Program-made: the position numbers and the translations under genes
Shown: positions 1,035 through 16,790 of the stretch, one piece after another
Position numbering within the stretch: position 1 is the stretch's first letter
Layout of the letters: the number at the start of each line of letters is the position of its first letter
Virus record (IMG/VR): IMGVR_UViG_3300029908_001149
Location: 1-24,637 of that record
Origin: a virus
DNA: 24,637 nucleotides
Direction: 5' to 3' (one strand)
Notes under the pieces: model-generated
Told to the model about the DNA's origin: nothing
Seen by the model: the letters and a program-made list of their open reading frames with translations, nothing else
The model's database searches: none

Positions 1035-2018
1035 TTATAGATTCTTTCTCAATCTGTAGATAAGTTCTTCGAATTCCTTATCAGAGCAAGCTAAATTCAA
1101 CCGCCTACAAGATTCATCACCACCAAATTGAGTTCCACTACTACCTAAGATGTCCATCTCAAGTAATCTTTCCTCTAGATTTTCGCCTTTAATATAAGCA
1201 AACATACCGTTTTTAGCAATAGATTGGATATCTGTGTCAAAGAAAACAGAATCTAATTGATTGCGGCGTTCTGTTAATACTTTATTGCCAAATTCAAAGC
1301 AAGATTCGATTCCAGCTGGCAGATCTAATAGATATTGAATAACTTTAGCAGCTTTGTTTTGAGAATCCTTACTTACGCCTGATGTTTGATGTTCTACGAA
1401 AAAAGCCATATTAGCTGCTATGATAGGATCTTTGACTAAAGCCCAACCTATACGAGTTCCAGCGTGTCCAGTAGCTTTAGATAAGCTGAATACCATTATA
1501 TCTTCGTCAAATTCCATTACCTCATTAACGTAAGTAGGCCAATTATAACATAAATCAAATATCTTAGCCGAGTTAATGGACACTGGTCTAACTTCACAAT
1601 TTCCATCTGGATTCCCTGGAATTGTAATGAGTTCCACTAATTCTGAATCCTTGGAGCTAATATTGTCTATATCTGTATTTTTCAATCCGCAAGTTGATAG
1701 ATCTACAAAATGGGGGAATTTATGGAAATGTGGTGGCTCAAAATATATCCTACTATGAGTTTTACCCATTGCATACATAGCGGCTTGTAGGATTTGAGTT
1801 GCGCCATTGCCGACTACCAATCTAGTATCTGAAGTAATTTTGGCATTGCCTATTTTCCTATGTAGTTCTTTAATTGGCTCAATCAATGAAGCTGTTATAG
1901 CTGACTTTGGATACGACATGAATTCACCGGAAGAGAAGGTGATGTCGAAACGATTTACCCAATAAGCTTCTAGGAATGTGGGATTCCCAATTCTTAGATC
2001 GAGTAGAGTGTTTTTCAT
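1035..2018 (-). CDS. PLP-dependent aminotransferase, alliinase / tryptophan aminotransferase (TAA1)-like
   Basis: A 327-residue fold-type I PLP enzyme. Visible signatures are: N-terminal GNPTFLEAYW (like the GDPxxxExYW of alliinase/TAA1); the phosphate loop GNGATQ (70-75); IPGNPDG with N136; DLCYNWP with D155 and Y158; the PLP lysine K181 in SLSKATGHAGTRIGW, with R189; and the C-terminal carboxylate-binding region CRRLNL (304-309). The S-K-x-T-G-H-A-G-x-R-x-G-W block is characteristic of the alliinase C-terminal/TAA1 family, which includes C-S lyases and L-Trp or other amino acid:pyruvate transaminases. The EGF-like N-terminal domain of plant alliinase is absent. The start overlaps the upstream 48-aa gene (ATGA). 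The substrate is unknown. Family confidence is high; transaminase versus lyase cannot be decided. Confidence 0.85.
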   Translation of the reverse strand: MKNTLLDLRIGNPTFLEAYWVNRFDITFSSGEFMSYPKSAITASLIEPIKELHRKIGNAKITSDTRLVVGNGATQILQAAMYAMGKTHSRIYFEPPHFHKFPHFVDLSTCGLKNTDIDNISSKDSELVELITIPGNPDGNCEVRPVSINSAKIFDLCYNWPTYVNEVMEFDEDIMVFSLSKATGHAGTRIGWALVKDPIIAANMAFFVEHQTSGVSKDSQNKAAKVIQYLLDLPAGIESCFEFGNKVLTERRNQLDSVFFDTDIQSIAKNGMFAYIKGENLEERLLEMDILGSSGTQFGGDESCRRLNLACSDKEFEELIYRLRKNL

Positions 2019-2461: not shown

Positions 2462-2905
2462 ATGATTAATTGGGAAGATGAAAAATGTATGGTTAGTTCC
2501 TTTTTTAGCGTACGCGAATGTTTGTGGCTTCCAACATGGGGACGCATGGCCACAGAAGCCGACGGGTTAACAGATGAGATAAAAGCTAATCTAGTAGCTT
2601 TATGTAATAAAATGGATCAAGTTAGAGCTTGGTTTGGACAATCTGTTAATGTTCACGTTACTTATAGGCCATTGAAGTATAATCAAGAGATAGGAGGAGC
2701 TCTTCATTCAATGCACTCAGTCGGTTCCGCGATGGACTTCAACATAGTCTCAGTAGACTGTGATACAGCCAGGAAAATGATTATGGACTCTAGCATGTTA
2801 GTCGCATGGGACATGCGCATGGAGGACAATCCGCCCGGTAGTCATTGGGTCCATTTAGATTGCAAAGAGGTGCCCGCTGGCGGACATAGGTACTTTATTC
2901 CTTGA
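2462..2905 (+). CDS. M15 family (M15A-like) zinc peptidase, probable endolysin
   Basis: A 147-residue protein with the M15/VanY-type signature S-x-H-x-x-G-x-A-x-D (S83, H85, G88, A90, D92) and the downstream W-V-H-L-D (H131). H85, D92 and H131 would bind zinc. Family members cut peptide bonds in peptidoglycan stems as D-Ala-D-Ala carboxypeptidases or L,D/D,D-endopeptidases, and many phage endolysins have this domain alone at this size. There is no signal peptide, so export would need a holin-type partner. TYRP-type sequence at 67-70 fits the arginine region of the family. Its 3' end overlaps the convergent gene by 11 bp. A plus-strand extended -10 (TGATATAGT, 2440-2448) lies just upstream. 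Confidence 0.85.
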   Translation: MINWEDEKCMVSSFFSVRECLWLPTWGRMATEADGLTDEIKANLVALCNKMDQVRAWFGQSVNVHVTYRPLKYNQEIGGALHSMHSVGSAMDFNIVSVDCDTARKMIMDSSMLVAWDMRMEDNPPGSHWVHLDCKEVPAGGHRYFIP

Positions 2906-4216: not shown

Positions 4217-5722
4217 CTATTTCTTAGGTTTCTTAGGCATACTTTTTGCTAGGATCTTTTCTGCTTTTAAGGATTTATTCATAGCAATAACTGAACCAAT
4301 AGAATCGATCTCGCCTAAAGTTAAGTTAGGCATTCTTTTGTGCATGAAATCTCGGAATTCTTCTTTCTTGCCCCAAACCTTGTATTCTTCCTTGGCACGT
4401 TTGGACCATTTTTTCTTACCACTATCCAAACTTTCCTTCACTAATGCGGCACCGCCAGCTAATTGAGAAGGAGCGACGTTTCCAGATCCGGCAGTCAAAG
4501 CTTTCTTGATCTCTTTCTGGCCAGCCTTAGGGGCTCCGGAAGCTCCTTGAGAAGGCATGTTAAACGATCTGTTGCCGCCAGTAGTACCGGCGTTTAAACC
4601 GCTTAGGTATTTATGAGCATGAGCGCTAGCACTTTTCGCATCTGCGTGTCCATGACCAGAAACTCCGCCGACTCCAGCATAGTTACCGGCATGTTTAACG
4701 TCAAACTTATTAGTTTCAGGATTTTTCATAACTGAAACAGTCCCCATCATTGGGTGCTCATAATGAGCTGCAGCATTGCCGCCTTTAGTTTGCACCAAAG
4801 TGCCTTGCCAGCCTTCTGGAGCTTTGATCTTTTGTCTTGTTTCAGTATTAAAAGGTATAGGAGTGCCGACCGGCTTAGGAGCTTTTGGTGCTGCTGGTTC
4901 AGCTTTCTTCATATTAGCAGCTTCGGTATGTTTTTTACCTTCAGCAGTGTGCATATCGGAGATATGAGAGGCCGGAGCTAAGTGGGCGACTCCATGTCCG
5001 CTAGCGTAATCGGCGTGCATTGCTGCAGCTTCATGATGTTCAGCTGGAGTGAAATCTTTGTGAGCAGGATGCTCAAAATTGATATGGATCGGTTTGCCAG
5101 TGGAAGTATGGTCGTAGGGACGTTTACTGAATTTGTCGGCTTTTTCCATGGTAGTTCCTGCGTTAAGTAATTGGATGGCAATCGAAGATTCGGATTTAAA
5201 GATATCTTGATCAAAAAGATCATTCATAGAATCTTTTACAGGTTTATTTTCTGGCATTAATTTAGCAATAGCTGCTTTATTACAAGGAGTTACAGTGATA
5301 GTGACTTTGCGAGCGATAGATTTTGTGATGTACATTCCATTCTTATCTATCTTAGCTCCCTCGATTGAAAAGCCAACGATATCATGTTCATGGGAATTAG
5401 CGGCAGAGTACATAAATAGACCGGCAATATCTTTTGCTGATTCATTATAATCGTCAAATAATTCGCCAGTAATATAAAGAAAGGGAACTTGACATTGGGA
5501 CCAGAAGAATTTCTCATTATCTGAGGAGCATTCGTCTTCGGTCATTATTTTCTTAGCAGTTAGGATTTTACCTACAGTTTGCCCAGGAAGATCGGATTTG
5601 TGTTCAAAGTTTAAAGTACCATCTTTATCCAAAGATGTAATATCCAATCCGGACATTAAGAGCACTTCTCCTGAACTATCGATGTTCTCACTGGCCGCAA
5701 TGCCTTGAATTTTAGTAGCCAT
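4217..5722 (-). CDS. prohead (capsid maturation) serine protease with long scaffold-like C-terminal region
   Basis: A 501-residue protein. The N-terminal ~165 residues look like a herpesvirus/phage prohead protease: a catalytic His in NFEHKSDLPGQTVGKI (H41), a catalytic Ser in VGFSIEGAK (S119), and the strand IARKVTITVTPCNKAA that follows it in this family. It would cleave scaffold and capsid N-termini in the prohead. The rest is low-complexity: a His-rich stretch (about 210-270), an Ala/Pro/Lys linker, a Gly-rich middle and a basic C-terminus ending KPKK. Around residues 405-430 it carries KALTAGSGNVAPSQLAGGAAL, closely matching the capsid protein N-terminus. A fused or embedded scaffold role is plausible. 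GAGG about 10 nt upstream supports the start. Confidence 0.8.
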   Translation of the reverse strand: MATKIQGIAASENIDSSGEVLLMSGLDITSLDKDGTLNFEHKSDLPGQTVGKILTAKKIMTEDECSSDNEKFFWSQCQVPFLYITGELFDDYNESAKDIAGLFMYSAANSHEHDIVGFSIEGAKIDKNGMYITKSIARKVTITVTPCNKAAIAKLMPENKPVKDSMNDLFDQDIFKSESSIAIQLLNAGTTMEKADKFSKRPYDHTSTGKPIHINFEHPAHKDFTPAEHHEAAAMHADYASGHGVAHLAPASHISDMHTAEGKKHTEAANMKKAEPAAPKAPKPVGTPIPFNTETRQKIKAPEGWQGTLVQTKGGNAAAHYEHPMMGTVSVMKNPETNKFDVKHAGNYAGVGGVSGHGHADAKSASAHAHKYLSGLNAGTTGGNRSFNMPSQGASGAPKAGQKEIKKALTAGSGNVAPSQLAGGAALVKESLDSGKKKWSKRAKEEYKVWGKKEEFRDFMHKRMPNLTLGEIDSIGSVIAMNKSLKAEKILAKSMPKKPKK

Positions 5723-7390: not shown

Positions 7391-8797
7391 ATGTATACTG
7401 AACAAATGCAATCACTGATGAAGGCTTTGGAAGCTGGTTCTTACAATGCAGCTCCAGGCCAATTAGTACAAGGCGCTGCCTTGATGATCGAAGATCTTTC
7501 CCCAATCATGCACAATGTGACTTTTGATGATTCACACATCAAGTTACAAAAGATGCTAACTAGCAAGGCTGTTAAGTCGCAATTACATCAATTCGACAGA
7601 CAACTTGATTATGGTATCTTCGGTGGATCCGCTCAATTTGAAGGCGGGATCGGCGAAGAGGATACAAGTAATTTCGTCCGTGCTGTAGTGCCTATGGCTT
7701 ACTACTCCACGACACGTCGCGTAACTGTTGCTTCCAACATGGTAGCTACACTTGATGGCGTAAAAGCGGAAGATCGTTCAGCTGCTGACGCTGCAATGAA
7801 ACTTTGCGGTGACGTAGAATTCGACTTGTTCCGTGGACAATCTGACTTCTCAAACGCAGGCGTATTCGATGGTAACCCACTTGCAATCGCTAAAATGCCT
7901 AACATGATCGGCTTAGATCTTCAAGTACGTCAATCAGACGGTGAATTAAACACCCAAGATTTGATGTTCTCTGAATACGGATCTAGCTTGACTGTAGTAC
8001 TTTCGGCTGACGGAACGCTTACGCAATCCATCATCGAAGATTCTTCAGTAAGAAGTGCAATGAACATGGGTGCCGCTGACAAATTGTTAGTAGATCCAAT
8101 CGTTCTATCAGCTTACAACAAGATCTCACACGCTAAAGAACGTATCATGCTTGCTGGTTCAGCTCAAGAAGCTACTGGCGCTCACTTACGTACTCAATGG
8201 ACTTCAGCAGCTGTAGTTTCCTTAGAGCCTTCTAGGTTCCTTTCTGGAAAAACACAACCAGCTCGTGCTCGCTCCGGATCCCCAGCGGCTCCAGGTGCAA
8301 TCACTCCATCCGATGCAGGTGCAGCAGGTTCAATGTTAGCAGCTGGCACTTACTGGTACTTCGTAACTGCTTTCAGCATACGCGGTGAATCTCTTCCAAG
8401 TGCAGCAGTTTCCGTAGCGGTAGCTGCAGCAGGTGACAAAGTAACTGTTGCTATCCCAGCAGTAGCTTTGGCAGCGGGCTTCAACGTTTATCGTTCAGAA
8501 GTCGGCGGATCAGCTTCAAGTGCTCAATTCATCGGAAAGATCGCTTCTCCTTATGGAACAGGCGTAACTTTCACTGACTTAGGTGCTCGCTCCCCAGGTT
8601 CCGTAACAGGATTCTTGGTTCAAGGGAACACAATGGGTATTGCTCAACTTGCTCCTTATAGCAAATTAAAGCTTGCAGTCGCAGATTTGTCGCTTCCCGA
8701 AGCGCACTTCAGATTTCTATCTTTAGCAGTTTTCCAACCTCGTAAGAACGTTCTTTTAGACAATCTTACAGGACAATTGACTGGCGGCGGATACTAA
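7391..8797 (+). CDS. probable major capsid protein with an inserted Ig-like domain
   Basis: A 468-residue protein in the order protease, scaffold, capsid, preceded by AGGAGATAA and followed by a strong terminator, as expected for a highly expressed head gene. The N-terminus holds KALEAGSYNAAPGQLVQGAAL (11-31), near-identical to a segment of the protease C-terminus. The central part (about 40-290), with a long FDDSHIKLQKML-type helix and strands, fits an HK97-fold capsid. Residues about 296-405 (AAPGAITPSD ... TYWYFVTAFS ... GFNVYRSEVGG ... FTDLGARSPGS) read as an Ig/FN3-like domain inserted before the last strands (AHFRFLSLAVFQPRKNVLLDNLTG). The head role rests on context and composition; the family was not confirmed by search. 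Confidence 0.75.
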   Translation: MYTEQMQSLMKALEAGSYNAAPGQLVQGAALMIEDLSPIMHNVTFDDSHIKLQKMLTSKAVKSQLHQFDRQLDYGIFGGSAQFEGGIGEEDTSNFVRAVVPMAYYSTTRRVTVASNMVATLDGVKAEDRSAADAAMKLCGDVEFDLFRGQSDFSNAGVFDGNPLAIAKMPNMIGLDLQVRQSDGELNTQDLMFSEYGSSLTVVLSADGTLTQSIIEDSSVRSAMNMGAADKLLVDPIVLSAYNKISHAKERIMLAGSAQEATGAHLRTQWTSAAVVSLEPSRFLSGKTQPARARSGSPAAPGAITPSDAGAAGSMLAAGTYWYFVTAFSIRGESLPSAAVSVAVAAAGDKVTVAIPAVALAAGFNVYRSEVGGSASSAQFIGKIASPYGTGVTFTDLGARSPGSVTGFLVQGNTMGIAQLAPYSKLKLAVADLSLPEAHFRFLSLAVFQPRKNVLLDNLTGQLTGGGY

Positions 8798-8824: not shown

Positions 8825-8860
8825 AAGCCCAAGGATTGATTTCCTTGGGCTTTTTGTTTT
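8825..8860 (+). terminator. strong intrinsic terminator after the capsid gene
   Basis: A perfect 10-bp stem, AAGCCCAAGG (8825-8834) and CCTTGGGCTT (8843-8852), with an 8-nt loop and then TTTGTTTT. On the minus strand it is followed by a less regular T-rich run (TTAATGTTTTTATATTT), so it may also end the endonuclease transcript coming the other way. Confidence 0.9.
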
Positions 8861-8868
8861 ATGGTGTC

Positions 8869-10407
8869 CTATATTTTCTTTATCCATTTAGAATTTCCCG
8901 TACCATAAATTTTCCAGTACCCTTCTTCTTTCATAGCTGCGTCACCTTTTTTCCATGAGATCTGCCTAGGAAATCTTGACTCTTTATTACACCAGTGCAT
9001 ATCGGGTTCTGTGAATTCTACAAATTGGAACTTATTTCTCTCATAAACTTCACCGTGACTATAACGTCTATCTGCATATGTCATAATCGTATCTATTCCG
9101 TTAGCTTTTAGACTTTTCTCAGCTGAGGCCAGTAACCTATCGAAGCCAGAGCCTACGCTCCAATTTAGTTTGGAACAGAATCTAGCTATCTCTACTGTTT
9201 TTTCGTCTTCATTGACTCTAGGAGTTCTAAAAGTAAGTAGAGATACCAATTCGTCCTTATACCATAGACCTAGGCGTAACGTGCCTCGACATTGACCTTG
9301 CAAGTGATTTGCGTTTAAAAAAGCACTGGCCGTTTTATAATCAACTTCTTTCAAAGTACATTCTCTAGCATATATCTTATGTTGAAATATTCCTAATTTA
9401 GCTTTTATTACAGATTCTACTATATCAGTTTGTTCATTAATTTCATCTTCAAAAAACTGCAGTAACTTAATATCATGTTTGTCGGCTAATTCTGCCTTAA
9501 GCCTATGACTTGATCTGTCAACGCCTATAGAAATGTCCGATTCTGCCTCTTGATGCCAATATAGGCCGTGTAATTCGATTCCGAATTTGCGTTCTTCATC
9601 GTATAAATCTATTTCTAGAGCATTGTTCCCATTTTTAGTATCGTCCCTATATAAAACACGACGGTTCCGCTCTATATTAGGTAGAAGATCTTTTATAAAG
9701 TCATAAACTTTAATTTCCATTGAACTTTTAGGAGTACAAAACGGACAGTTACCGCGTTTAATAAAATTATTGCTGCGCTGTAAAAATATATGTTCTTTTG
9801 GACACATATATTGATACACTCCATCATCGTTGAAAGTTAACACAGTAAAATCTGGAAATCTCAGTTTAGCCAATCGAACATGTCTATCATGAAGAGAAAT
9901 CGCTTGTTCAGTTAAAGCATTGCTTACTCTAGTTTTACGCTCCTCATCAGTCAAGCTATCCCATATATTCTTGCCAAACTCAGATGTCCCAAAACCGCTA
10001 ACTTCGTTGTTTTTTAATGCAGTTTCTCTTCTAATTTCAATTGCTTCAGGATTTTCAGCTATATAATCAGTCACAGATTCTGAAATCTTATCTCTAGTAG
10101 CTTGAACAGACATGTTTTTAGTAGCTGTAACAGACCATTGATCACCTCTCTCGGCTATAGCTTTAGAAATAGCCTTACCCCTATTAGCGAGTACTATAGG
10201 GTCTTTGCTTTTAATTCTATTGGAGCAAATATTACAGATTAGTTTATCTTGATATTGTCCACGTCTTCGAATTTTAATTGGACTTAAGCAATTCTGAGTC
10301 GTGCATTGCCACAGCATTTGTGCTGGTTGTAATCTCGTACCTTCATAAGTACGTTCTCTATCTTTTGTAACTACTACTAAATCTTCTCTATCATTGGACC
10401 GGTTCAT
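8869..10407 (-). CDS. Vsr-like (EDxHD-type) homing endonuclease with zinc ribbons and GNAT-like C-terminal domain
   Basis: A 512-residue protein. Order of parts: an N-terminal Cys cluster (C35, C40, C58, C61); a linker; a second zinc ribbon (C202, H206, C221, C224); then a nuclease core with E231, EID (265-267), IELHGLYWH (277-285), H301 and the FFEDEI block (318-323). This arrangement is typical of the Vsr-like EDxHD homing endonucleases of phages. The final ~165 residues (YARECTLKEVDY...) look like the acetyltransferase-fold domain often attached to these proteins; no acetylation role is implied. It is free-standing, antisense to the capsid gene, with its own promoter, and would promote its own spread by cutting uninserted phage DNA. 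The ribosome binding site is poor (TTAGG about 10 nt upstream). Confidence 0.8.
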   Translation of the reverse strand: MNRSNDREDLVVVTKDRERTYEGTRLQPAQMLWQCTTQNCLSPIKIRRRGQYQDKLICNICSNRIKSKDPIVLANRGKAISKAIAERGDQWSVTATKNMSVQATRDKISESVTDYIAENPEAIEIRRETALKNNEVSGFGTSEFGKNIWDSLTDEERKTRVSNALTEQAISLHDRHVRLAKLRFPDFTVLTFNDDGVYQYMCPKEHIFLQRSNNFIKRGNCPFCTPKSSMEIKVYDFIKDLLPNIERNRRVLYRDDTKNGNNALEIDLYDEERKFGIELHGLYWHQEAESDISIGVDRSSHRLKAELADKHDIKLLQFFEDEINEQTDIVESVIKAKLGIFQHKIYARECTLKEVDYKTASAFLNANHLQGQCRGTLRLGLWYKDELVSLLTFRTPRVNEDEKTVEIARFCSKLNWSVGSGFDRLLASAEKSLKANGIDTIMTYADRRYSHGEVYERNKFQFVEFTEPDMHWCNKESRFPRQISWKKGDAAMKEEGYWKIYGTGNSKWIKKI

Positions 10408-10438: not shown

Positions 10439-10467
10439 AGGATAACATAAAAGCTAAATTTTGTCAA
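10439..10467 (-). promoter_or_regulatory. sigma70-type promoter for the homing endonuclease
   Basis: On the minus strand, TTGACA (10462-10467), 17-bp spacer, TATCCT (10439-10444). A perfect -35 and optimal spacing suggest recognition by the host's housekeeping polymerase, so probable early expression. Confidence 0.7.
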
Positions 10468-10517: not shown

Positions 10518-10829
10518 TCATGTCTTATCTTTCTTCAACTCTTCCTCAATCATATCCACTATAGCCTTGGCAGCTTCATCATCTATGTTTTTGACTGAAT
10601 CTATATAACCAGCACTAAACATTATCAAAGTGGCCATTCCGCCTATGAAACCAAAGGCTTCTGATTGAACCAGCCACATATTAGCGCCGATTACTACCGC
10701 TGTACCTATAAGGATATTTCTCAAATAATGACTACTGGCCACTTGTATCGCCCTATCACGGGCCACGAGTACTGGTTCGACTAACTCTTTTGGTAGAGTT
10801 ACTTTTAATTCTTCTAAGTTCTTTTTCAT
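10518..10829 (-). CDS. small two-helix membrane protein
   Basis: A 103-residue protein, last gene of the eight-gene minus-strand operon. Two adjacent hydrophobic segments are visible (about 39-55, NILIGTAVVIGANMWLV; about 60-77, FGFIGGMATLIMFSAGY) between a charged amphipathic N-terminus and an acidic/basic C-terminal helix ending EEELKKDKT. The size and two-helix hairpin would suit a class II holin, but the long N-terminal helix and the absence of an adjacent endolysin make that only one possibility. The start overlaps the upstream stop as ATGA. Confidence 0.7.
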   Translation of the reverse strand: MKKNLEELKVTLPKELVEPVLVARDRAIQVASSHYLRNILIGTAVVIGANMWLVQSEAFGFIGGMATLIMFSAGYIDSVKNIDDEAAKAIVDMIEEELKKDKT

Positions 10830-11047
10830 ATTTTAATAGACCTTTCTTTAGCTCTAATTGCAATATCTAATTCAACTAATGCTTCGAATAATGAAGTATC
10901 AGAGAAATCCATTATATAATATATTAATGCCGGATCTTCTCCGATCTGGATTTTATAATAAGCCGGATCTTCCTTGCTAGGGGTTATACTCACTAATCCT
11001 CTGCGATCATCGCCTAAGTAAAATATCCTTTGAAGTACACTGATCAT
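10826..11047 (-). CDS. hypothetical protein (73 aa), start revised
   Basis: Unrecognised small soluble protein (MISVLQRIFYLGDDRR...KERSIKI). I place the start at the ATG at 11047 because AGGAG lies exactly 5 nt before it. The longer reading from 11074 has no ribosome binding site and would overlap the upstream gene. Its stop overlaps the start of the membrane protein gene (ATGA). It belongs to the SbmA-like operon; function unknown. Confidence 0.7.
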   Translation of the reverse strand: MISVLQRIFYLGDDRRGLVSITPSKEDPAYYKIQIGEDPALIYYIMDFSDTSLFEALVELDIAIRAKERSIKI

Positions 11048-11055
11048 ATTATCTC

Positions 11056-11262
11056 CTAATATCCATTCATGCAAGCGGCATATTGGTTATAAATGCCGAC
11101 TTGTTGTTCTTGAGTTATAAAGCCACCTTGAGCATAATACGTACGGTTAATGCTATCTTTATAGATGTAATAACATTGAGAAGTCGAATATCCGCGACTA
11201 TACGAAACCGCGCAAGCGCTGGTAAACGTTAATAAAACTGCTGCTAACATAAATTTATACAT
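11056..11262 (-). CDS. predicted small exported protein, possible lipoprotein
   Basis: A 68-residue product (start at 11262, AGGAG 5 nt upstream) opening with a signal-like segment, a Lys then AAVLLTFTSAC. Cys17 sits where a lipobox cysteine would be, but position -3 is Thr rather than Leu, so lipidation is uncertain and a signal peptidase I site is possible. The mature part is Tyr/Gln-rich with two more cysteines (C29 and C63) that could form a disulfide in the periplasm. The longer reading from 11289 would bury the signal. A Rz1-like spanin lipoprotein is conceivable, but the mature part is not Pro-rich. Role unknown. Confidence 0.65.
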   Translation of the reverse strand: MYKFMLAAVLLTFTSACAVSYSRGYSTSQCYYIYKDSINRTYYAQGGFITQEQQVGIYNQYAACMNGY

Positions 11263-11270
11263 ATGTGCTC

Positions 11271-11477
11271 CTAGTATCTTTTGTGCCACTGAGGTCTTTG
11301 ATGCAAGTATTTTGCAGCTTCAAGATCAGAGGCGGTTTGTTTTAACGTAGTAAGAACTTCATTTAACGATTCTTCATCTAGATCTAAGCTATTGATTTTC
11401 TTTATCATTGTATCAATATCTTTTTCCATATCTGATATTTGTAGTTGAAGTGTCTTTAAGAATTTATCTAATGCCAT
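11271..11477 (-). CDS. small coiled-coil protein
   Basis: A 68-residue, almost fully helical, heptad-like protein (FLKTLQLQISDMEKDIDTM...) with a basic, aromatic C-terminal end (HQRPQWHKRY). No known family. The ATG shares one base with the stop of the SbmA-like gene (TAATG), and GGAG is 9 nt upstream inside that gene, so it is translationally coupled to it. A partner or regulator of the transporter is a reasonable guess from coupling only. Confidence 0.7.
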   Translation of the reverse strand: MALDKFLKTLQLQISDMEKDIDTMIKKINSLDLDEESLNEVLTTLKQTASDLEAAKYLHQRPQWHKRY

Positions 11478-12367
11478 TATTTTGTCTCCATTTCGACTAT
11501 GCGATTAATCACTGATTCCAGTTTTGAAATATCATCCTGCTTCTCGATAATGAGTTCTGAACATTCAATAATGACTTTCATGGCATCTGCAGTCGCAAAA
11601 AGAACACCCAAAGAAAGAGTCCCAAAGAAATATTGCCTAGCCAGAAGCAAATGCGGGAATACTACTGCCGCTTGTAAATAGCCCGACTGAAAGAAACCTA
11701 ATTTCTTGGCTCGAATCATTAAAGCGGACCAGTTCTGTTTAACATCATCTAAGACTGGTGCTTTAGTGAAACTTTTATCCCAAGTAAGTATCTTTTGTCT
11801 TAGAGTTGATTCTCTGCTTTCTTGTTCATAGGAAAGTTGAACTAACGGTTGAGCGATCCATTTTGCAATTCGGCTGCCAACAATTACCCATATGGCTATT
11901 GGTAATAAAAACCAAGGACTAGCTGTGGAGACTAATAGGTATATGAAAATAGGTAAGGTAATAAAAGCGTTGATACAAGCTGTAGCCAAAGTCAAGGTCA
12001 TCGTTGTAAGTTCTTCTAAATCCATGGTCAATCGTTGCTCGTTAGTTCCCGTCTCATTTAAGACTCCAGAAGTAAGCTTTAAATACAAAGCCTCACGCCA
12101 AATGAACGATAGGCCTCTTTTAAAGTACGAATTATAACCTTTGCTCAAAACCCAAGCTGCTGCCATGGCGGAAAAGAAGGCTATGGCCTCTAAAAAGTGT
12201 TGGAAGTTGTGTTGTTGGAAAGAATCCATGAACATACGTCTAAATTGATTTAGACCGACCGTGAGAGCTACCATCGATAACTCAGTTAACAGAATTGCCA
12301 TCAGAAGCTTATAGCTGCCTTTGGCATTATAACACATCTTTAATAGCTTGAATAAATTCTTAAGCAT
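11477..12367 (-). CDS. SbmA/BacA-like ABC-transporter transmembrane protein lacking an ATPase
   Basis: A 296-residue polytopic membrane protein. Six likely membrane segments lie at about 20-40, 57-78, 124-147, 151-171, 224-247 and 252-275. Family marks of SbmA/BacA and ABC_membrane_2 proteins are visible: IWRE (89-92) after helix 2; NEQRLTMDLEE (109-119, like NPDQRIxEDI); the cytosolic stretch PLVQLSYEQESRESTLR (174-190); and AVVFPHLLLARQYFFGTLSLG (given as AVVFPHLLLARQ and YFFGTLSLG, 234-254). It ends with ISKLESVINRIVEM, where the transmembrane domain of relatives ends, and no nucleotide-binding domain follows in any frame. SbmA/BacA import peptides and some antibiotics using the proton gradient. 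An ATPase-less half transporter or dominant-negative partner of a host ABC protein is the alternative. Confidence 0.75.
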   Translation of the reverse strand: MLKNLFKLLKMCYNAKGSYKLLMAILLTELSMVALTVGLNQFRRMFMDSFQQHNFQHFLEAIAFFSAMAAAWVLSKGYNSYFKRGLSFIWREALYLKLTSGVLNETGTNEQRLTMDLEELTTMTLTLATACINAFITLPIFIYLLVSTASPWFLLPIAIWVIVGSRIAKWIAQPLVQLSYEQESRESTLRQKILTWDKSFTKAPVLDDVKQNWSALMIRAKKLGFFQSGYLQAAVVFPHLLLARQYFFGTLSLGVLFATADAMKVIIECSELIIEKQDDISKLESVINRIVEMETK

Positions 12368-12584
12368 AATGTCCTAACCATTCGTAAACTTCATACAAGA
12401 ACAGAAAGAATCCTATAAGGAAAAGGGTATTAAAAGTTAAGCTTATAATTAGACTAGCGGCCTTTTTATCTCTACTTAAAGCGCGTCTGACTTCATTTTT
12501 TATCTCTAAAGCGATTGCAAATATTGGAGCTAGAACTAAGACGGTGATGGACAATAGTCCAATTATGTTAAATACTTTATACAT
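12360..12584 (-). CDS. small two-helix membrane protein
   Basis: A 74-residue protein with two hydrophobic helices (about 7-27, IIGLLSITVLVLAPIFAIAL; about 44-65, LIISLTFNTLFLIGFFLFLY) joined by a basic loop (EVRRALSRDKKA). AAAGG lies 6 nt upstream. It overlaps the start of the SbmA-like gene by 8 bp and carries that gene's Shine-Dalgarno (AGGA), which argues for joint function in the inner membrane. No family recognised; holin-like topology is possible. Confidence 0.7.
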   Translation of the reverse strand: MYKVFNIIGLLSITVLVLAPIFAIALEIKNEVRRALSRDKKAASLIISLTFNTLFLIGFFLFLYEVYEWLGHYA

Positions 12585-12826
12585 AACTTACCTTTCTGGT
12601 AATAGTATTCTACTTTTCTAGTCAAAGGAGCATTATCTTCAGGTTCCCAACCTTCTTTGATCTCTTCAGTTAAATAGTAGAAATAAGGACCTGGTATAAT
12701 TTTACCATTGGCAGTCAAAGAATCCACTAGATGCCTAGCGGCTAACATAGCAGTTGTGTCAGACAGTACAGGAGTCGTCTTTTTAAGTTCTTCGGCTTTC
12801 TTTATGATAATCACAGACTTTTTCAT
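12563..12826 (-). CDS. hypothetical protein (87 aa)
   Basis: Unrecognised soluble protein with a basic N-terminal helix and a Tyr-rich end (VEYYYQKGKLCIKYLT). It overlaps the next membrane-protein gene by 22 bp and shares one base with the previous stop (TAATG), so it sits firmly in the same operon. AAGGA about 11 nt before the ATG is a distant but usable ribosome binding site. Confidence 0.65.
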   Translation of the reverse strand: MKKSVIIIKKAEELKKTTPVLSDTTAMLAARHLVDSLTANGKIIPGPYFYYLTEEIKEGWEPEDNAPLTRKVEYYYQKGKLCIKYLT

Positions 12827-13017
12827 TAGCTACTAATTCCTTCGTCTGGAATAACTAATAAACGAGCTTCTACTAATTCATTAGTATCAGGGCGTATTAC
12901 ATTCCCTAATATCAAATACTTATAAGCCTGTATTTCTGGCATCACTTTACGAGCTTCAGTTAGGGTAATTGTAAAGTTCTTGATATTAATTTCTAGTGGG
13001 ATATCTCCATTTTCCAT
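12826..13017 (-). CDS. hypothetical protein (63 aa), first gene of the SbmA-like operon
   Basis: A 63-residue soluble protein, no recognised family. It lies about 30 nt downstream of the predicted start of a near-consensus promoter. The ribosome binding site is weak (AGAAAG), and a GGGATC-TAT-GATCCC palindrome immediately upstream could fold in the leader RNA or bind a repressor, so expression of the whole operon may be tuned here. Confidence 0.65.
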   Translation of the reverse strand: MENGDIPLEINIKNFTITLTEARKVMPEIQAYKYLILGNVIRPDTNELVEARLLVIPDEGISS

Positions 13018-13031
13018 GACAACTACTTTCT

Positions 13032-13082
13032 GGGATCTATGATCCCTGGTATAAGTATACCATAGGTAAAATAGGTTGTCAA
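13032..13082 (-). promoter_or_regulatory. promoter with two palindromes controlling the SbmA-like operon
   Basis: On the minus strand, TTGACA (13077-13082), 17-bp spacer, TATACT (13054-13059): both hexamers near-perfect. The -10 lies inside a palindrome GGTATA-AG-TATACC (13048-13061), followed downstream by GGGATC-TAT-GATCCC (13032-13046). Repression by a protein binding over the -10 or leader is the likely logic; no regulator gene is identified. Confidence 0.7.
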
Positions 13083-13085
13083 ATC

Positions 13086-13331
13086 CTATTCATCAGTGGA
13101 TTCGATGACCGTGTCGTCTTCGACGTTATCTAACGAGTTTTCTATGTTTCTATTAAAAATGATGGTTCGCATTTTAGTTTTATGTTCATTTTCAGTATAT
13201 TCAACGCCATAGAGGTACCATTTACGATTCCCTTTAACATATTCTATAGCAGGGCCTTCTTCACGATGAAGTTTGCCATTTAAGTACCAGAATACATTGC
13301 CGTTAGAATTGTAAACCGGACCATTTCTCAC
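13086..13331 (-). CDS. HREDGPA-type repeat protein (GTG start, divergent tail)
   Basis: An 81-residue protein with one HREEGPAIEY repeat between two W-Y-L-(N/Y)-G strands, then a diverged tail (TENEH...FNRNIENSLDN) extended by an acidic end. The GTG start overlaps the preceding TGA (GTGA), with GAGG upstream supplied by the previous gene's Glu-Ala codons. It is the last gene of the phosphoesterase operon. The decayed tail agrees with no gene following closely on this strand. Confidence 0.8.
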   Translation of the reverse strand: MRNGPVYNSNGNVFWYLNGKLHREEGPAIEYVKGNRKWYLYGVEYTENEHKTKMRTIIFNRNIENSLDNVEDDTVIESTDE

Positions 13332-13531
13332 TTAAGAGCCTCATTGATATTGTCGTTGAATTGTCTATTGCGTTGAAGTTGTCTGATTTCTAGTTCGGTT
13401 AATGCTATACCATTTAAGTACCAGCGTTTATCACCGTCATTCCATTCGATAGCTGGACCATCTTCACGATGAAGTTTGCCGTTTAAGTACCAGCGTTTAG
13501 AGCCCGATTCGGTATGTAGACCGTTTTTCAT
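13328..13531 (-). CDS. HREDGPA-repeat protein (single repeat)
   Basis: A 67-residue protein: MKNGL start, W-Y-L-N-G-K-L, one HREDGPAIEW repeat, W-Y-L-N-G, then the full tail (TELEIRQLQR, NRQFNDNINEALK). The start overlaps the upstream stop by 4 nt with GGAG as Shine-Dalgarno, and its own tail supplies GAGG to the GTG of the next gene. It is closely related in sequence to the tail proteins at 16575-16790 and 232-720, implying duplication within this genome. Confidence 0.85.
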   Translation of the reverse strand: MKNGLHTESGSKRWYLNGKLHREDGPAIEWNDGDKRWYLNGIALTELEIRQLQRNRQFNDNINEALK

Positions 13532-13824
13532 TTTAAAGCTCCATCGATCCTTTTGTTAAACAATTCACGATCAGTTTCTTCGTACTTGTCACCGGGCTCT
13601 ATATTGACGTAGATTCGTTCTTTGGAATATCTAGAAGTACTTGGTCCAAGTAGATCATTGATAGTTCTTAACATATCAGCCATTGCCGATAAGCCATCGT
13701 CTTCCTCGTTGTTTTGATATACATAATCAGTATGATCGGGCGGATCATTATCGAACGTTACAGTATGTGATAGAATAAATCCGTTATCTGCTACTTTAAT
13801 AGTAATCACAATATTATTCCTCAT
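13528..13824 (-). CDS. hypothetical protein (98 aa) with a tail-like C-terminus
   Basis: A soluble protein beginning MRNNIVITIKVADNGFIL, with an acidic centre and a conserved-looking GDKYEE motif. No family could be named. It has no HREDGPA repeat, yet it ends RELFNKRIDGALK, which resembles the shared tail (QFNDNINEALK). The codons for DGALK give GGAG ahead of the next ATG. The start overlaps the phosphoesterase stop (ATGA). Confidence 0.7.
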   Translation of the reverse strand: MRNNIVITIKVADNGFILSHTVTFDNDPPDHTDYVYQNNEEDDGLSAMADMLRTINDLLGPSTSRYSKERIYVNIEPGDKYEETDRELFNKRIDGALK

Positions 13825-14462
13825 ATGTCAAAAACCAAGGGTTTATTAGTTACTTCATATCTCTCGTTCAATTGAGAGGCATTTGCAAAAGTAATGTTAT
13901 TGATTAAATTTTGTCCAAAAGATCCGTGGATATGGCCAAAGAAGTGGTGTGTTAAATTAGGTAACTGTTTAACTCTCTTAAGTAGCTCTTCACAGCCAAG
14001 GAATTCGCTATTAGCTTCTGGATAGGCTTGATCTAAGATACCATAAGGAGGCCCATGGGTTACAAGGACCCGGGTATCTTCAGGTATCTGGGCCCATTTC
14101 TTTGCGATCTCAGGACCTCTGAGCACGTTATAACTCCAGTCGTGGAATTCAGGCTGGAAGGGCGATAGCCAGAATTTGATGCCTTCAATTTCAATTTGCT
14201 CATGAATCAATAGCTTAGCGGCACTTAATACTGCTTTGGCCATTCCTGGATCTTCTTCTATACAGATGTCATGATTTCCTGGTGAGATAAGAATTCCGTG
14301 TTTAAACTTAGGAGCTTGCTTCATAAGCCATTGATTAAACTGGATTAACTCTCTGACAGAGCCACGGGAACAGAAATCGCCACAGTGGATTAGTAGGTCC
14401 CCTTCTGGTAATTCAATCTGATCATGCAAAGTATGAGTATCGCTTATTATTACTAACTTCAA
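13821..14462 (-). CDS. calcineurin-like metallophosphoesterase, MPPED family-like
   Basis: A 213-residue enzyme with all metal-binding motifs of the family: SDTH (D8, H10), GDF (D29), GNHD (N63, H64), VTHGPP (H136) and GHIHG (H177, H179). The W-L-S-P-F-Q-P-x-F-H-D-W region (about 98-109) and GPPYGILD match class III phosphodiesterases such as MPPED1/2. These hydrolyse phosphodiesters, including 2',3'- or 3',5'-cyclic nucleotides in some members; the substrate here is unknown. The start is TTG, 9 nt after GGAG; no ATG fits better. First gene of a four-gene operon of overlapping stops and starts. Confidence 0.88.
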   Translation of the reverse strand: MKLVIISDTHTLHDQIELPEGDLLIHCGDFCSRGSVRELIQFNQWLMKQAPKFKHGILISPGNHDICIEEDPGMAKAVLSAAKLLIHEQIEIEGIKFWLSPFQPEFHDWSYNVLRGPEIAKKWAQIPEDTRVLVTHGPPYGILDQAYPEANSEFLGCEELLKRVKQLPNLTHHFFGHIHGSFGQNLINNITFANASQLNERYEVTNKPLVFDI

Positions 14463-14475
14463 AAGTATGATCTCC

Positions 14476-14510
14476 TGATATAGTATATCATACGTACAAG
14501 CGTTTGTCTA
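14476..14510 (-). promoter_or_regulatory. promoter of the phosphoesterase operon, overlapping a 15-bp palindrome
   Basis: On the minus strand, TAGACA (14505-14510), 17-bp spacer, TATACT (14482-14487) with TG one base upstream. The -10 lies in the palindrome TGATATAGTATATCA (14476-14490), which also forms an extended -10 on the plus strand, towards the ice-binding gene. The predicted leader is only about a dozen bases, with GGAG at its very 5' end. Confidence 0.65.
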
Positions 14511-14572
14511 TCCCAATCTTATGGATAGCGAACACGCGATAATTTACTTTGATCTTTCAAGGAGATCCTATC

Positions 14573-16501
14573 ATGGCCATTTCTAAATTCGATAATGATT
14601 ATTTTATCAATGCTTTAACTAGCCAAGCAGCCGGGTTGGAGTTGATTAGCGCTCTTGAAAATGGATCGGTTTTATCAACATTCACTTTAGATAGACTAAT
14701 CATAGCTTTAGGTAGTCAACAAGCTGCTTTAAATCTACAAGCCGCTATGATCAACAAGGGAATTCTTTCAGCAGAAGATATTCAATATATGAGCCAAGGC
14801 TTTGCTAATGCTCAAGTAGCTCAAGACGCCGTAGCAGCAATCGCATCTTCAAACGCAGTATCTAACGCTATAACTGCTCCATCTTTAGTAGGAATGCCAA
14901 TAACTTACGGATTAGAAGTGGCAAATTCCGGAGTTACACAAGCTCAAATAGTAAGTTTAAGCGCTCCAGCAGGAAGTTCTTTCCCTACAACTGGAACAGC
15001 CGGATACGTTGAACTGTACAACGGCGGAGACGCTAATAAGTATTATGTATGGTATAGCGTTCTAGGTGGCAGCGTAGTTGATCCAGCTCCAGCCGGGTTC
15101 ACTGGTATCGAAGTCATTATAAACGCCAGTGATACTGCTGCAGCTGTCGCTACAAAGACTCTGACAGCGATTGCTGCTGGAACCGTAGCTTTATCTACAT
15201 CCGTTTCCGGATCAGTAGTCAGCATTACTGCAACTGTAGTTTTAGTCGCTACTCCTACTTTCTCTTTACCAGCTGGAACTTATTCTGGGACACAATTTGT
15301 AACCCTTTCTTGCTCTACAGCCGGTGCGTCAATGTTCTATACATTGGATGGATCCTCTCCTACGATTTCAAGTACACCTTACGTAACAGCGATCTCGGTT
15401 GGCGCTAGCGAAACTATTAAGGTATTAGCTACCAAATCAGGTCTAGCTAATTCCGCAATCGCAAGTGCAGCTTACGTGATTACTGGATCAGCAGGTGTCG
15501 CTACTCACTTAGTGTTTTCAACACAACCTTCAGCAGGTGTAGCTGGAGTCGCTTTTCCTACTCAACCTATCGTAACCATTAAAGATGCTTCAGGCGCAAC
15601 AGTAACGACTGGTGCAGATGCTACTGCTTCTATTACTCTATCACTTCTTTCAGGAACCGGAGTTCTATCCGGTACAGTAACCATGGCTGCTGTTGCGGGT
15701 GTAGCTGACTTCGTAGGTAAAGGGGTTAAGATAAACTTATACGGTAATAAAACTTTATTAGCAACTAAAGCTGACACTACCGGCGGCGGCGGGACAGTCT
15801 CGTTCACAATCGCTAGCGATACTTTTAATATCGCTAACAGTTTAGCAACCGTTGACCTAGGAACATCTGCTAACTATAAGATCTTAGCTGAGTCTGGCAT
15901 TTCCACAACAGCTGGATCTTTTATCACTGGCGCTATTGCAGTAAGCCCTATAGCTTCAACGGCAATAACCGGTTTCGGTCTAATATTAGATGGAAGTGGA
16001 ACCTTCTCTACCTCTTCATTAGTAAGCGGACATGTATTCGCAGCAGATTACGCTTCTCCTACTCCAGCGACTTTGACTACAGCAATAAGTGACATGGGAA
16101 CAGCCTATACGGACGCGGCTGGCCGACCAACTCCTGATTTTACAAATCTAGGTTCTGGTAATCTTGGCGGATTAACATTAACTCCTGGTCTATACAAATG
16201 GACAAGTGGCGTAACGATTCCAACTAACGTGACAATTTCCGGTGGACCAAACGATATTTTCATATTCCAAATCGCCGGTACATTAGTAATGTCAGCTTCC
16301 ACCAGTATCATTCTAAGTGGTGGAGTAGTTGCTTCCAATATCTTCTGGCAAGTTGCCGGAGCTGTAACCATTGGAGCAAATGCTGTATTTAGTGGTATTG
16401 TATTAGCGCAAACAAGCGTCGCTTTAGTAACCAGTGCTTCTTTAAGCGGACGTATCTTAGCTCAAACAGCTGCTACCTTACAAAGTAACGCTATAACCTA
16501 A
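14573..16501 (+). CDS. modular virion-type protein with C-terminal DUF3494 ice-binding domain
   Basis: A 642-residue protein; the start is ATG 14573 because AAGGAG lies 8 nt upstream (an upstream in-frame TTG is discarded). Parts: a helical N-terminus (1-125); a beta region typical of phage fibre/tail proteins (about 130-225, GYVELYNGGDANKYYVWY); a chitobiase-C-terminal/FN3-like domain (about 228-305, VTLSCSTAGASMFYTLDGSSP); an Ig-like domain (about 309-420); and a DUF3494 ice-binding domain (about 424-642). The last is recognised by DLGTSANYKILAESGIS, ITGAIAVSPIASTAITGF, ADYASPTP, AYTDAAGR, LTPGLYKW, NDIFIFQIAGTL, NIFWQVAG and GRILAQTAATL. DUF3494 folds into a beta-solenoid that binds ice in polar bacteria, algae and fungi. 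There is no signal peptide, so placement on the virion is likelier than secretion. A terminator follows. Confidence 0.85.
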   Translation: MAISKFDNDYFINALTSQAAGLELISALENGSVLSTFTLDRLIIALGSQQAALNLQAAMINKGILSAEDIQYMSQGFANAQVAQDAVAAIASSNAVSNAITAPSLVGMPITYGLEVANSGVTQAQIVSLSAPAGSSFPTTGTAGYVELYNGGDANKYYVWYSVLGGSVVDPAPAGFTGIEVIINASDTAAAVATKTLTAIAAGTVALSTSVSGSVVSITATVVLVATPTFSLPAGTYSGTQFVTLSCSTAGASMFYTLDGSSPTISSTPYVTAISVGASETIKVLATKSGLANSAIASAAYVITGSAGVATHLVFSTQPSAGVAGVAFPTQPIVTIKDASGATVTTGADATASITLSLLSGTGVLSGTVTMAAVAGVADFVGKGVKINLYGNKTLLATKADTTGGGGTVSFTIASDTFNIANSLATVDLGTSANYKILAESGISTTAGSFITGAIAVSPIASTAITGFGLILDGSGTFSTSSLVSGHVFAADYASPTPATLTTAISDMGTAYTDAAGRPTPDFTNLGSGNLGGLTLTPGLYKWTSGVTIPTNVTISGGPNDIFIFQIAGTLVMSASTSIILSGGVVASNIFWQVAGAVTIGANAVFSGIVLAQTSVALVTSASLSGRILAQTAATLQSNAIT

Positions 16502-16521: not shown

Positions 16522-16581
16522 GGCGGACGCTCCGCCACTCTCCATTGGGGGCTGACTTAAAACGTCGGCCCTAATTATTTT
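16522..16581 (+). terminator. double hairpin terminator after the ice-binding gene
   Basis: GGCGGA-CGC-TCCGCC (16522-16536) is followed by a longer hairpin, GGGCTGAC (16549-16556) and GTCGGCCC (16564-16571) with one G-T pair and a 7-nt loop, then TAATTATTTT. It lies between convergent genes and partly reaches into the end of the minus-strand gene. Confidence 0.65.
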
Positions 16582-16790
16582 AAAGCCTCATTGATATTGT
16601 CGTTGAACTGTCTATTACGTTGATATTGTTTGAATTCTAGTTCGGTTAATTCTTTGTTATTTAAATACCATACTTTATATTCTGCAATACGCACTTCTTG
16701 GGACCCCATGAAGACTCCCGAATAGTAGTGCACTGTCTTGATATGCTCGCCATTGAGAGGTTTATTATCTTTGTCTATATTATTTCTCAT
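16575..16790 (-). CDS. 71-aa tail-module protein (repeat family without HREDGPA)
   Basis: It keeps the W-Y-L-N-N strand and the full tail (TELEFKQYQR, NRQFNDNINEALK) of the repeat family, but the N-terminal half has no HREDGPA motif. ATG overlaps the thymidylate kinase stop, with GAGG from the kinase's last codons as Shine-Dalgarno. Here the tail ends in TAA instead of TGA and no start codon overlaps, in line with there being no following gene on this strand. The peptide tail is nevertheless intact, so it is kept for more than coupling. Function unknown. Confidence 0.8.
   Translation of the reverse strand: MRNNIDKDNKPLNGEHIKTVHYYSGVFMGSQEVRIAEYKVWYLNNKELTELEFKQYQRNRQFNDNINEALK

Follow-up and report, generated by a model that had tools for sequence, protein, structure and literature searches.

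Why would a phage carry the membrane domain of a bacterial transporter, and carry it among seven much smaller genes? The question is raised by the virus record IMGVR_UViG_3300029908_001149, analyzed here from positions 1 to 24,637 (this 24,637-base stretch is referred to below as the window), where eight tightly packed open reading frames (ORFs) run along the minus strand from 13017 to 10518. A first-pass annotation, made from the letters of the window without database searches, had described these genes, here called op1 to op8, as a membrane-focused operon under one strong, palindrome-controlled promoter that might remodel the cell envelope for superinfection exclusion, peptide import or lysis timing. 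The largest product, op4, is an SbmA/YddA-type membrane domain that lacks the known motors of both transporter families, and the block occurs in this phage alone within the collections searched. The eight genes and their products are as follows.

op1: 12826 to 13017, minus strand, 63 amino acids, soluble-looking
op2: 12563 to 12826, minus strand, 87 amino acids, soluble-looking
op3: 12360 to 12584, minus strand, 74 amino acids, two hydrophobic helices (hairpin)
op4: 11477 to 12367, minus strand, 296 amino acids, SbmA/YddA-type transporter membrane domain
op5: 11271 to 11477, minus strand, 68 amino acids, coiled-coil-like and soluble, its start overlapping the op4 stop by 1 nt
op6: 11056 to 11262, minus strand, 68 amino acids, small lipoprotein-like peptide with a lipobox ending in TSAC (Cys17)
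op7: 10826 to 11047, minus strand, 73 amino acids, soluble-looking
op8: 10518 to 10829, minus strand, 103 amino acids, hydrophobic hairpin

Coordinates, spacing and coding scores agree that these are eight overlapping or nearly abutting genes, as had been claimed. Neighboring frames overlap by 1, 22, 8, 1 and 4 nt or are parted by one of two 8-nt gaps, and with codon use learned from 18 other genes of the window, most of them longer, 8/8 genes score highest in their own reading frame among the six. For op6 and op7 the starts given are not those of the longest frames but ATGs farther in, each preceded by a good ribosome site, which gives products of 68 and 73 residues. The inventory of products in the first-pass annotation also holds: op4 has the SbmA/YddA fold; op3 and op8 are the two small two-helix membrane proteins, with one op8 segment above threshold and a second, weaker one that is a reading of the sequence; op6, with a signal sequence and a lipobox, is the exported or lipoprotein-like peptide; op5 is the coiled-coil-like protein coupled to the transporter gene; and op1, op2 and op7 are the three soluble-looking proteins for which Pfam, PHROGs and NCBIfam offered nothing convincing. 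An AlphaFold model of op2 alone (pLDDT 51) was too poor for a structure search. For op3 a weak PADLOC match to a "2TM effector" (8.7e-4) serves as a lead only, and op5, which has no membrane segment, collects many weak coiled-coil matches in Pfam and PHROGs. Whether the block deserves to be called membrane-focused has a divided answer. Membrane or exported products make up 4/8 of the block versus 7/73 of the other phage genes (Fisher one-sided p 0.010), several of those seven being capsid or tail genes with a single hydrophobic stretch, and among proteins of up to 120 amino acids the counts are 3/7 versus 2/25 (p 0.057); the other four products of the block, however, look soluble.

The identity of op4 is best approached through its fold. 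The protein passes the family models PF05992 (SbmA_BacA; 56 bits, cut-off 24, 4.3e-15) and PF06472 (54 bits, cut-off 24.4), and its best curated NCBIfam match is a putative transporter, NF009036, at 70 bits and 2.5e-19, which is below that model's own cut-off. An AlphaFold model, built on an alignment that took in 36 of the 80 bacterial loci returned, reached a pLDDT of 85.8. Its top match in the PDB is SbmA (9g3g; Z 23.9, root-mean-square deviation 2.5, 288 residues aligned), and ATP-binding cassette (ABC) exporters come next at about Z 22, Rv1819c among them with 22.0. By BLAST score the closest relatives are the YddA/BclA half ABC transporters, 24-32% identical across most of the domain, and identity to any bacterial protein found is 21-32%. 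Of 398 genomes sampled from the phylum to which one such bacterium belongs, 80 contain a match (32% identity at best), and most of these matches lie in long frames comparable in size to ATPase-bearing transporters. SbmA/YddA proteins are already well known in bacteria, and fold and sequence together identify op4 as a free-standing membrane domain of this type.

What would power such a domain is the more difficult part of the question. The SLiPT family is described in the available text of a recent survey as having neither an ATPase nor coupling helices and as carrying extra TM0 helices and a glutamate ladder, the loss of any ladder glutamate leaving SbmA inactive or severely impaired (PMC13316013). 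With the SLiPT proteins SbmA and BacA (PF05992, PRK11098; PDB 9g3g, 7p34) op4 shares a six-helix type IV membrane domain, short coupling loops, and the lack of an ATPase domain and of coupling helices, but it is only about 20% identical to them, is phage-borne, and has one of the six ladder glutamates: E276 is kept, E287D is a conservative change, and the remaining positions read E193M, E203L, E269S and E378K. The protein begins at the TM1 region and so has no TM0a or TM0b. This absence is a weak criterion because three bacterial relatives of SbmA (L124, L125 and L126), free-standing proteins of 323-344 amino acids, also lack TM0 and have 6/6 ladder glutamates; TM0 is thus not universal in ladder-bearing proteins.

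Nor is the motor of the other family present. With the YddA/BclA half ABC transporters (PF06472; Bradyrhizobium, Paraburkholderia, Azospirillum) op4 shares the membrane domain and a Leu at the E203 position, where 35/36 ATPase-type relatives have L; at the E287 position 36/36 of them have R. By sequence, then, op4 resembles YddA/BclA at the first of these positions and neither family at the second. It differs from the half-transporters in having no ATPase domain and in its cytoplasmic, ATPase-docking loops, which between invariant anchors span 21 residues (W90-Q111) and 26 residues (E186-N212). The same loops measure 32-37 and 40 in 36/36 ATPase-type relatives, so that those of op4 are shorter by 11-16 and 14 residues, and 23-24 and 32-33 in four SLiPTs; in SbmA itself they are 23 and 32. 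No ATP-binding domain is fused to op4 or encoded beside it, and no ABC_tran domain scores above 9.4 bits anywhere in the three contigs of this phage: the window, a 56-kb contig 99.97% identical to it, and a 10.7-kb contig at 99.95%. The nearest bacterial parallel is the orphan YddA membrane domain of Rhizobium tibeticum, which according to the text available of the same survey has no ATPase in its operon and an ATPase gene elsewhere in the genome (PMC13316013). Like that protein op4 is a membrane domain without an ATPase in its operon, and unlike it op4 is phage-borne, with no ATPase gene found in the three contigs. Taken together, these features make op4 probably not a canonical energized transporter of either the SbmA or the ABC type.

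A phage-borne relative of op4 would help to place it, and several collections were searched. Viral contigs, queried with the single protein and with a three-row alignment, returned only contigs of this same phage, and tblastn against 50,697 phage records returned none at E up to 1. A Foldseek search of a viral library gave six matches at E up to 0.001, all of them ABC transporters, and next a 291-residue Catovirus protein at 2.6e-3. With other queries, tblastn of the phage records matched five records with E. coli SbmA and four with a Caballeronia YddA domain. One of the matching records, a 254-kb "Acinetobacter phage", is full of housekeeping genes and was judged to be a bacterial contig under a wrong label; the remaining records, of 7.5, 2.7 and 7.1 kb together with a twin of the 254-kb one, were taken as host DNA from their size and identity alone. 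By sequence comparison, the collections searched hold no convincing phage-borne relative. No open-licence papers were found that join SbmA with phage or that treat phage-encoded ABC permeases, and the term "phage" is absent from the main text of two surveys (PMC12003926, PMC13316013). As a separate observation, the relative L015 (a record of 164.5 kb) has an ABC importer look-alike at L134 (G013:C1, about 135-138 kb) with an ATPase of 293 amino acids (PF00005, 106 bits) and a permease of 263 amino acids (PF00528), next to a haem-oxygenase-like DUF3865 protein and a protein that reads, from its sequence, as OmpA-like.

The surroundings of the block explain much about what kind of insertion it is. 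Apart from the phage's own 56-kb contig, a search with the capsid protein (gene at 7391-8797; phrog_752, 3e-36) recovered 12 related IMG/VR contigs, 52-81% identical, and also Myxococcus phage Mx1 at 54%, so by capsid sequence the phage is related to Mx1, on which no open-licence paper was found in the literature search. The block occupies a variable slot between the major capsid protein (MCP) gene and a tail module. The genes that flank this slot (capsid, 5948, 6455, 18346, 18937) are kept in most relatives, and 0/8 of the op genes match at 1e-3 in 13 capsid-related sequences (the 12 contigs and 41 kb of Mx1). Searches of the whole records of the 12 relatives gave 0/12 for the PF05992 family, op8, op2, op7, op3 and op6, the last with the phage's own contig recovered as a control, and 1/12 for op1, a match of 13.6 bits inside a 691-codon frame that was taken as chance. 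Single searches with op8, op2, op7 and op1 found only this phage's own contigs among viral contigs and no matches in the phage records; the search for op5 covered the capsid-related loci. The block is likely absent from the relatives, several of whose records are fragments, and short proteins can diverge beyond detection. The slot itself, surveyed with a mechanical gene caller in 11/12 relative contigs (L005, by its matches a near copy of L006, was left out), is 9.5 kb long here, 1.2-3.7 kb in 10/11 of the relatives and 6.9 kb in L014, and its contents in the relatives are mostly phosphoesterase, ice-binding-type, kinase or HNH genes. In L014 the slot includes four small ORFs, each with a single hydrophobic segment, which may be analogous cargo. 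Because the flanks are conserved and the block genes were not found in the relatives, the block is very probably an accessory, moron-type cassette specific to this lineage. It has its own promoter, a variable slot and no counterpart found in close relatives; no terminator of its own was found.

Other genes of the slot have features worth recording. An HNH/homing-type endonuclease gene with a Mom-like C-terminal part (8869-10407, minus strand) borders the block, and in L016 an HNH-type gene lies directly between the capsid and phosphoesterase genes with its orientation reversed. The metallophosphoesterase gene of the window (13821-14462, minus strand) matches PDC-S10, a candidate defence family of PADLOC, at 6e-76, and homologues of it directly follow the capsid gene in five relative contigs.

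How the cassette is expressed depends on the following elements.

Extended -10 sigma70-type promoter TTGACA-17-(TG)TATACT: 13054 to 13082, minus strand, 11/12 match with TG extension
Upstream extended -10 promoter TAGACA-17-TATACT: 14482 to 14510, minus strand, before the phosphoesterase gene, with a like palindrome over its -10
Promoter TTGACA-17-TATCCT: 10439 to 10467, minus strand, before the HNH gene
Two palindromes: 13032 to 13062, no strand assigned, TGGTATA-CT-TATACCA over the -10 and GGGATC-ATA-GATCCC just downstream, candidate operators of presumed function
Terminator-like hairpin with an 11-bp stem: 8825 to 8852, both strands, where the MCP and HNH genes converge

The TTGACA-17-TATACT promoter that had been noted ahead of the block is well supported: when the entire window was simulated 40 times with a first-order Markov model, sites as good as this one, with the TG, occurred at a mean of 0.075 per copy. 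Because it is a promoter of the host sigma70 type, the block is probably expressed early. The claim of a single strong, palindrome-controlled promoter fared less evenly, since the site is strong and the palindromes are there, but it is neither the sole promoter nor an isolating one. Palindromes whose arms are 6 bp long are frequent, numbering 81 in the window or about 0.2 per 60 bp, and GGGATC-ATA-GATCCC occurs once in the window and in 0/11 of the relative loci counted. The 7-bp-arm palindrome over the -10 at 13082 has a counterpart, TGATATA-C-TATATCA, at the 14510 promoter and none at the other 11 of the 13 extended -10 sites with at least 10/12 matches that were listed across the window plus a further 36 kb of the phage. 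Because this arrangement is confined to these two among the listed sites, it suggests a regulator common to both promoters. A terminator scan of the minus strand from 14462 to 8852 found none, save one weak match inside op2; there was none right after op8 or between the block and the 10467 promoter. The hairpin at 8825-8852, after the HNH gene, is the probable end of a minus-strand run that begins at 14510, and the eight genes are part of this longer run with its three promoters. With similar promoters on either side and no terminator to separate them, transcripts are likely to enter the block from upstream and to continue past its end, a single promoter for the block is therefore unsupported, and the 14510 promoter may feed the block as well.

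What, then, could the cassette do? We tentatively favor, at somewhat less than even confidence, a joint function in altering the host envelope and excluding competitors. Host sigma70-type RNA polymerase would read the cassette, probably early; an op4 dimer in the inner membrane might form an un-energized pore or scaffold; together with the two hairpin proteins, the small lipoprotein and the soluble partners it could alter the host envelope; and a competing phage or a peptide toxin would thereby be kept out. The remodelling and exclusion parts of the first-pass proposal suit a co-directional accessory cassette that is enriched in membrane proteins and placed in a variable slot, whereas peptide import and lysis timing, its other parts, are disfavored. 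Several points weigh against a joint function. None of the eight proteins matches any known exclusion protein, PADLOC giving weak hits to op3 and op5 only; half of the set looks soluble; and in the tree op4 sits on a branch 5.9 long among YddA types, with a grouping with the SLiPTs not rejected (p-AU 0.236). Another proton path in op4, or an ATPase in the remaining phage genome or in the host, is possible. Because no independent copy of the block was found, no conservation test can tell a unit from scattered single genes, and by sequence comparison the unity of the eight remains unproven. Some of the same evidence suits a plainer explanation, namely that eight unrelated accessory genes share a promoter and the compact packing of a phage early region, op4 being one captured cargo gene. 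No homologue, and so no linkage, was seen elsewhere, four of eight products look soluble, the promoter type recurs at the 13 listed sites in about 59 kb of this phage, where compact runs of small genes are common, and the neighbors on the minus strand are cargo of a generic kind (MORN-like, phosphoesterase, HNH). We regard this explanation as a serious possibility that falls short of probable, since the concentration of membrane and exported products (p 0.010, or 0.057 when size-matched) and the start/stop overlaps around op4, which suggest coupled translation, speak against it.

The remaining explanations assign op4 or its neighbors a more specific task. If op4 actively took up peptides or other solutes, with protons moving through other residues or a host ATPase as its power source and the block feeding or sensitizing the host, this would account for the retention of a whole transporter fold with SbmA as its top structural match and for the kept E276 and the conservative D at E287. 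With 5/6 ladder glutamates replaced (one of them conservatively), both coupling loops shortened and no ATPase gene in 56 kb of the phage, however, we consider this improbable; peptide import in particular is unlikely because op4 has neither the proton ladder nor an ATPase. Alternatively, op4 could be a dominant-negative subunit that pairs with a host half-transporter of the SbmA, YddA or BclA type and shuts it down, so that the infected cell is protected from bacteriocins or its envelope is changed. According to the survey text available, SbmA and BacA form homodimers (PMC13316013); op4 keeps the membrane domain and has no motor, and such transporters are frequent in the sampled phylum (80/398 genomes match op4). 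This too has little probability, as 21-32% identity to bacterial proteins makes mixed dimers doubtful. A lysis or lysis-timing module, with the hairpins as holins, op6 as outer spanin and op5 as inner spanin, draws on the match of op5 to an Rz-like spanin profile at 0.011 and on the small, lipoprotein-like character of op6. A spanin pair, however, consists of a membrane-anchored coiled-coil protein and a lipoprotein, and op5 lacks a membrane segment and fits many other coiled-coil profiles just as well. The endolysin-type peptidase M15 gene sits elsewhere in the window (2462-2905) and is kept in six relatives, no recognized lysis gene lies in the block, and the promoter is of an early type, all of which makes a role in lysis very improbable.

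If the envelope function that we favor is set beside known systems, the likeness is one of kind. Phage superinfection-exclusion and moron genes include T4 Imm and Sp, HK97 gp15, T5 Llp, and Cor. The cassette resembles them in its small membrane proteins or lipoproteins, its own promoter and its accessory position, and differs in having no sequence match to them in Pfam, PHROGs or PADLOC. To our knowledge such systems use fewer genes, and none needs eight genes and a transporter-sized protein. In E. coli K-12 the outer-membrane lipoprotein gene yaiW follows sbmA, and the pairing of op4 with op6 is similar in kind alone, op6 being far smaller.

A bolder version of the envelope function would make the locus of wider interest. 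SbmA is thought to derive from a YddA-like membrane domain that lost its ATPase and gained the proton ladder, as stated in the part of the survey available (PMC13316013). In op4 a YddA-type membrane domain stripped of its motor and docking sites might have been repurposed by a phage as a passive envelope device (a pore, plug or decoy), through a second ATPase loss independent of that of SbmA and with no ladder, to become the central part of a new exclusion system made up of several genes. We rate this conjunction as unlikely. Its appeal is that a phage protein with the ATPase loss and no ladder would show what a motorless domain can do, and that op4 would offer a specific candidate for a means by which a phage blocks the entry of peptides or DNA.

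Several features of the phage lie outside these questions. A probable head protease is encoded at 4217-5722. An alliinase-type aminotransferase gene (PF04864, 7e-57; 1035-2018, minus strand) adjoins an iron-sulphur biosynthesis gene (PF01521; 717-1034, plus strand), which is unusual cargo for a phage. Many small paralogues with a KxWYLNGKxHREDGPA-like motif are dispersed across the phage (for example at 13086-13331, 13328-13531, 16575-16790 and 232-720, and also in L136 and L137). Finally, the gene at 14549-16501 (plus strand) combines an ice-binding-like domain (PF11999, 8e-69) with a chitobiase-type domain and has a 60% identical homologue in L006.

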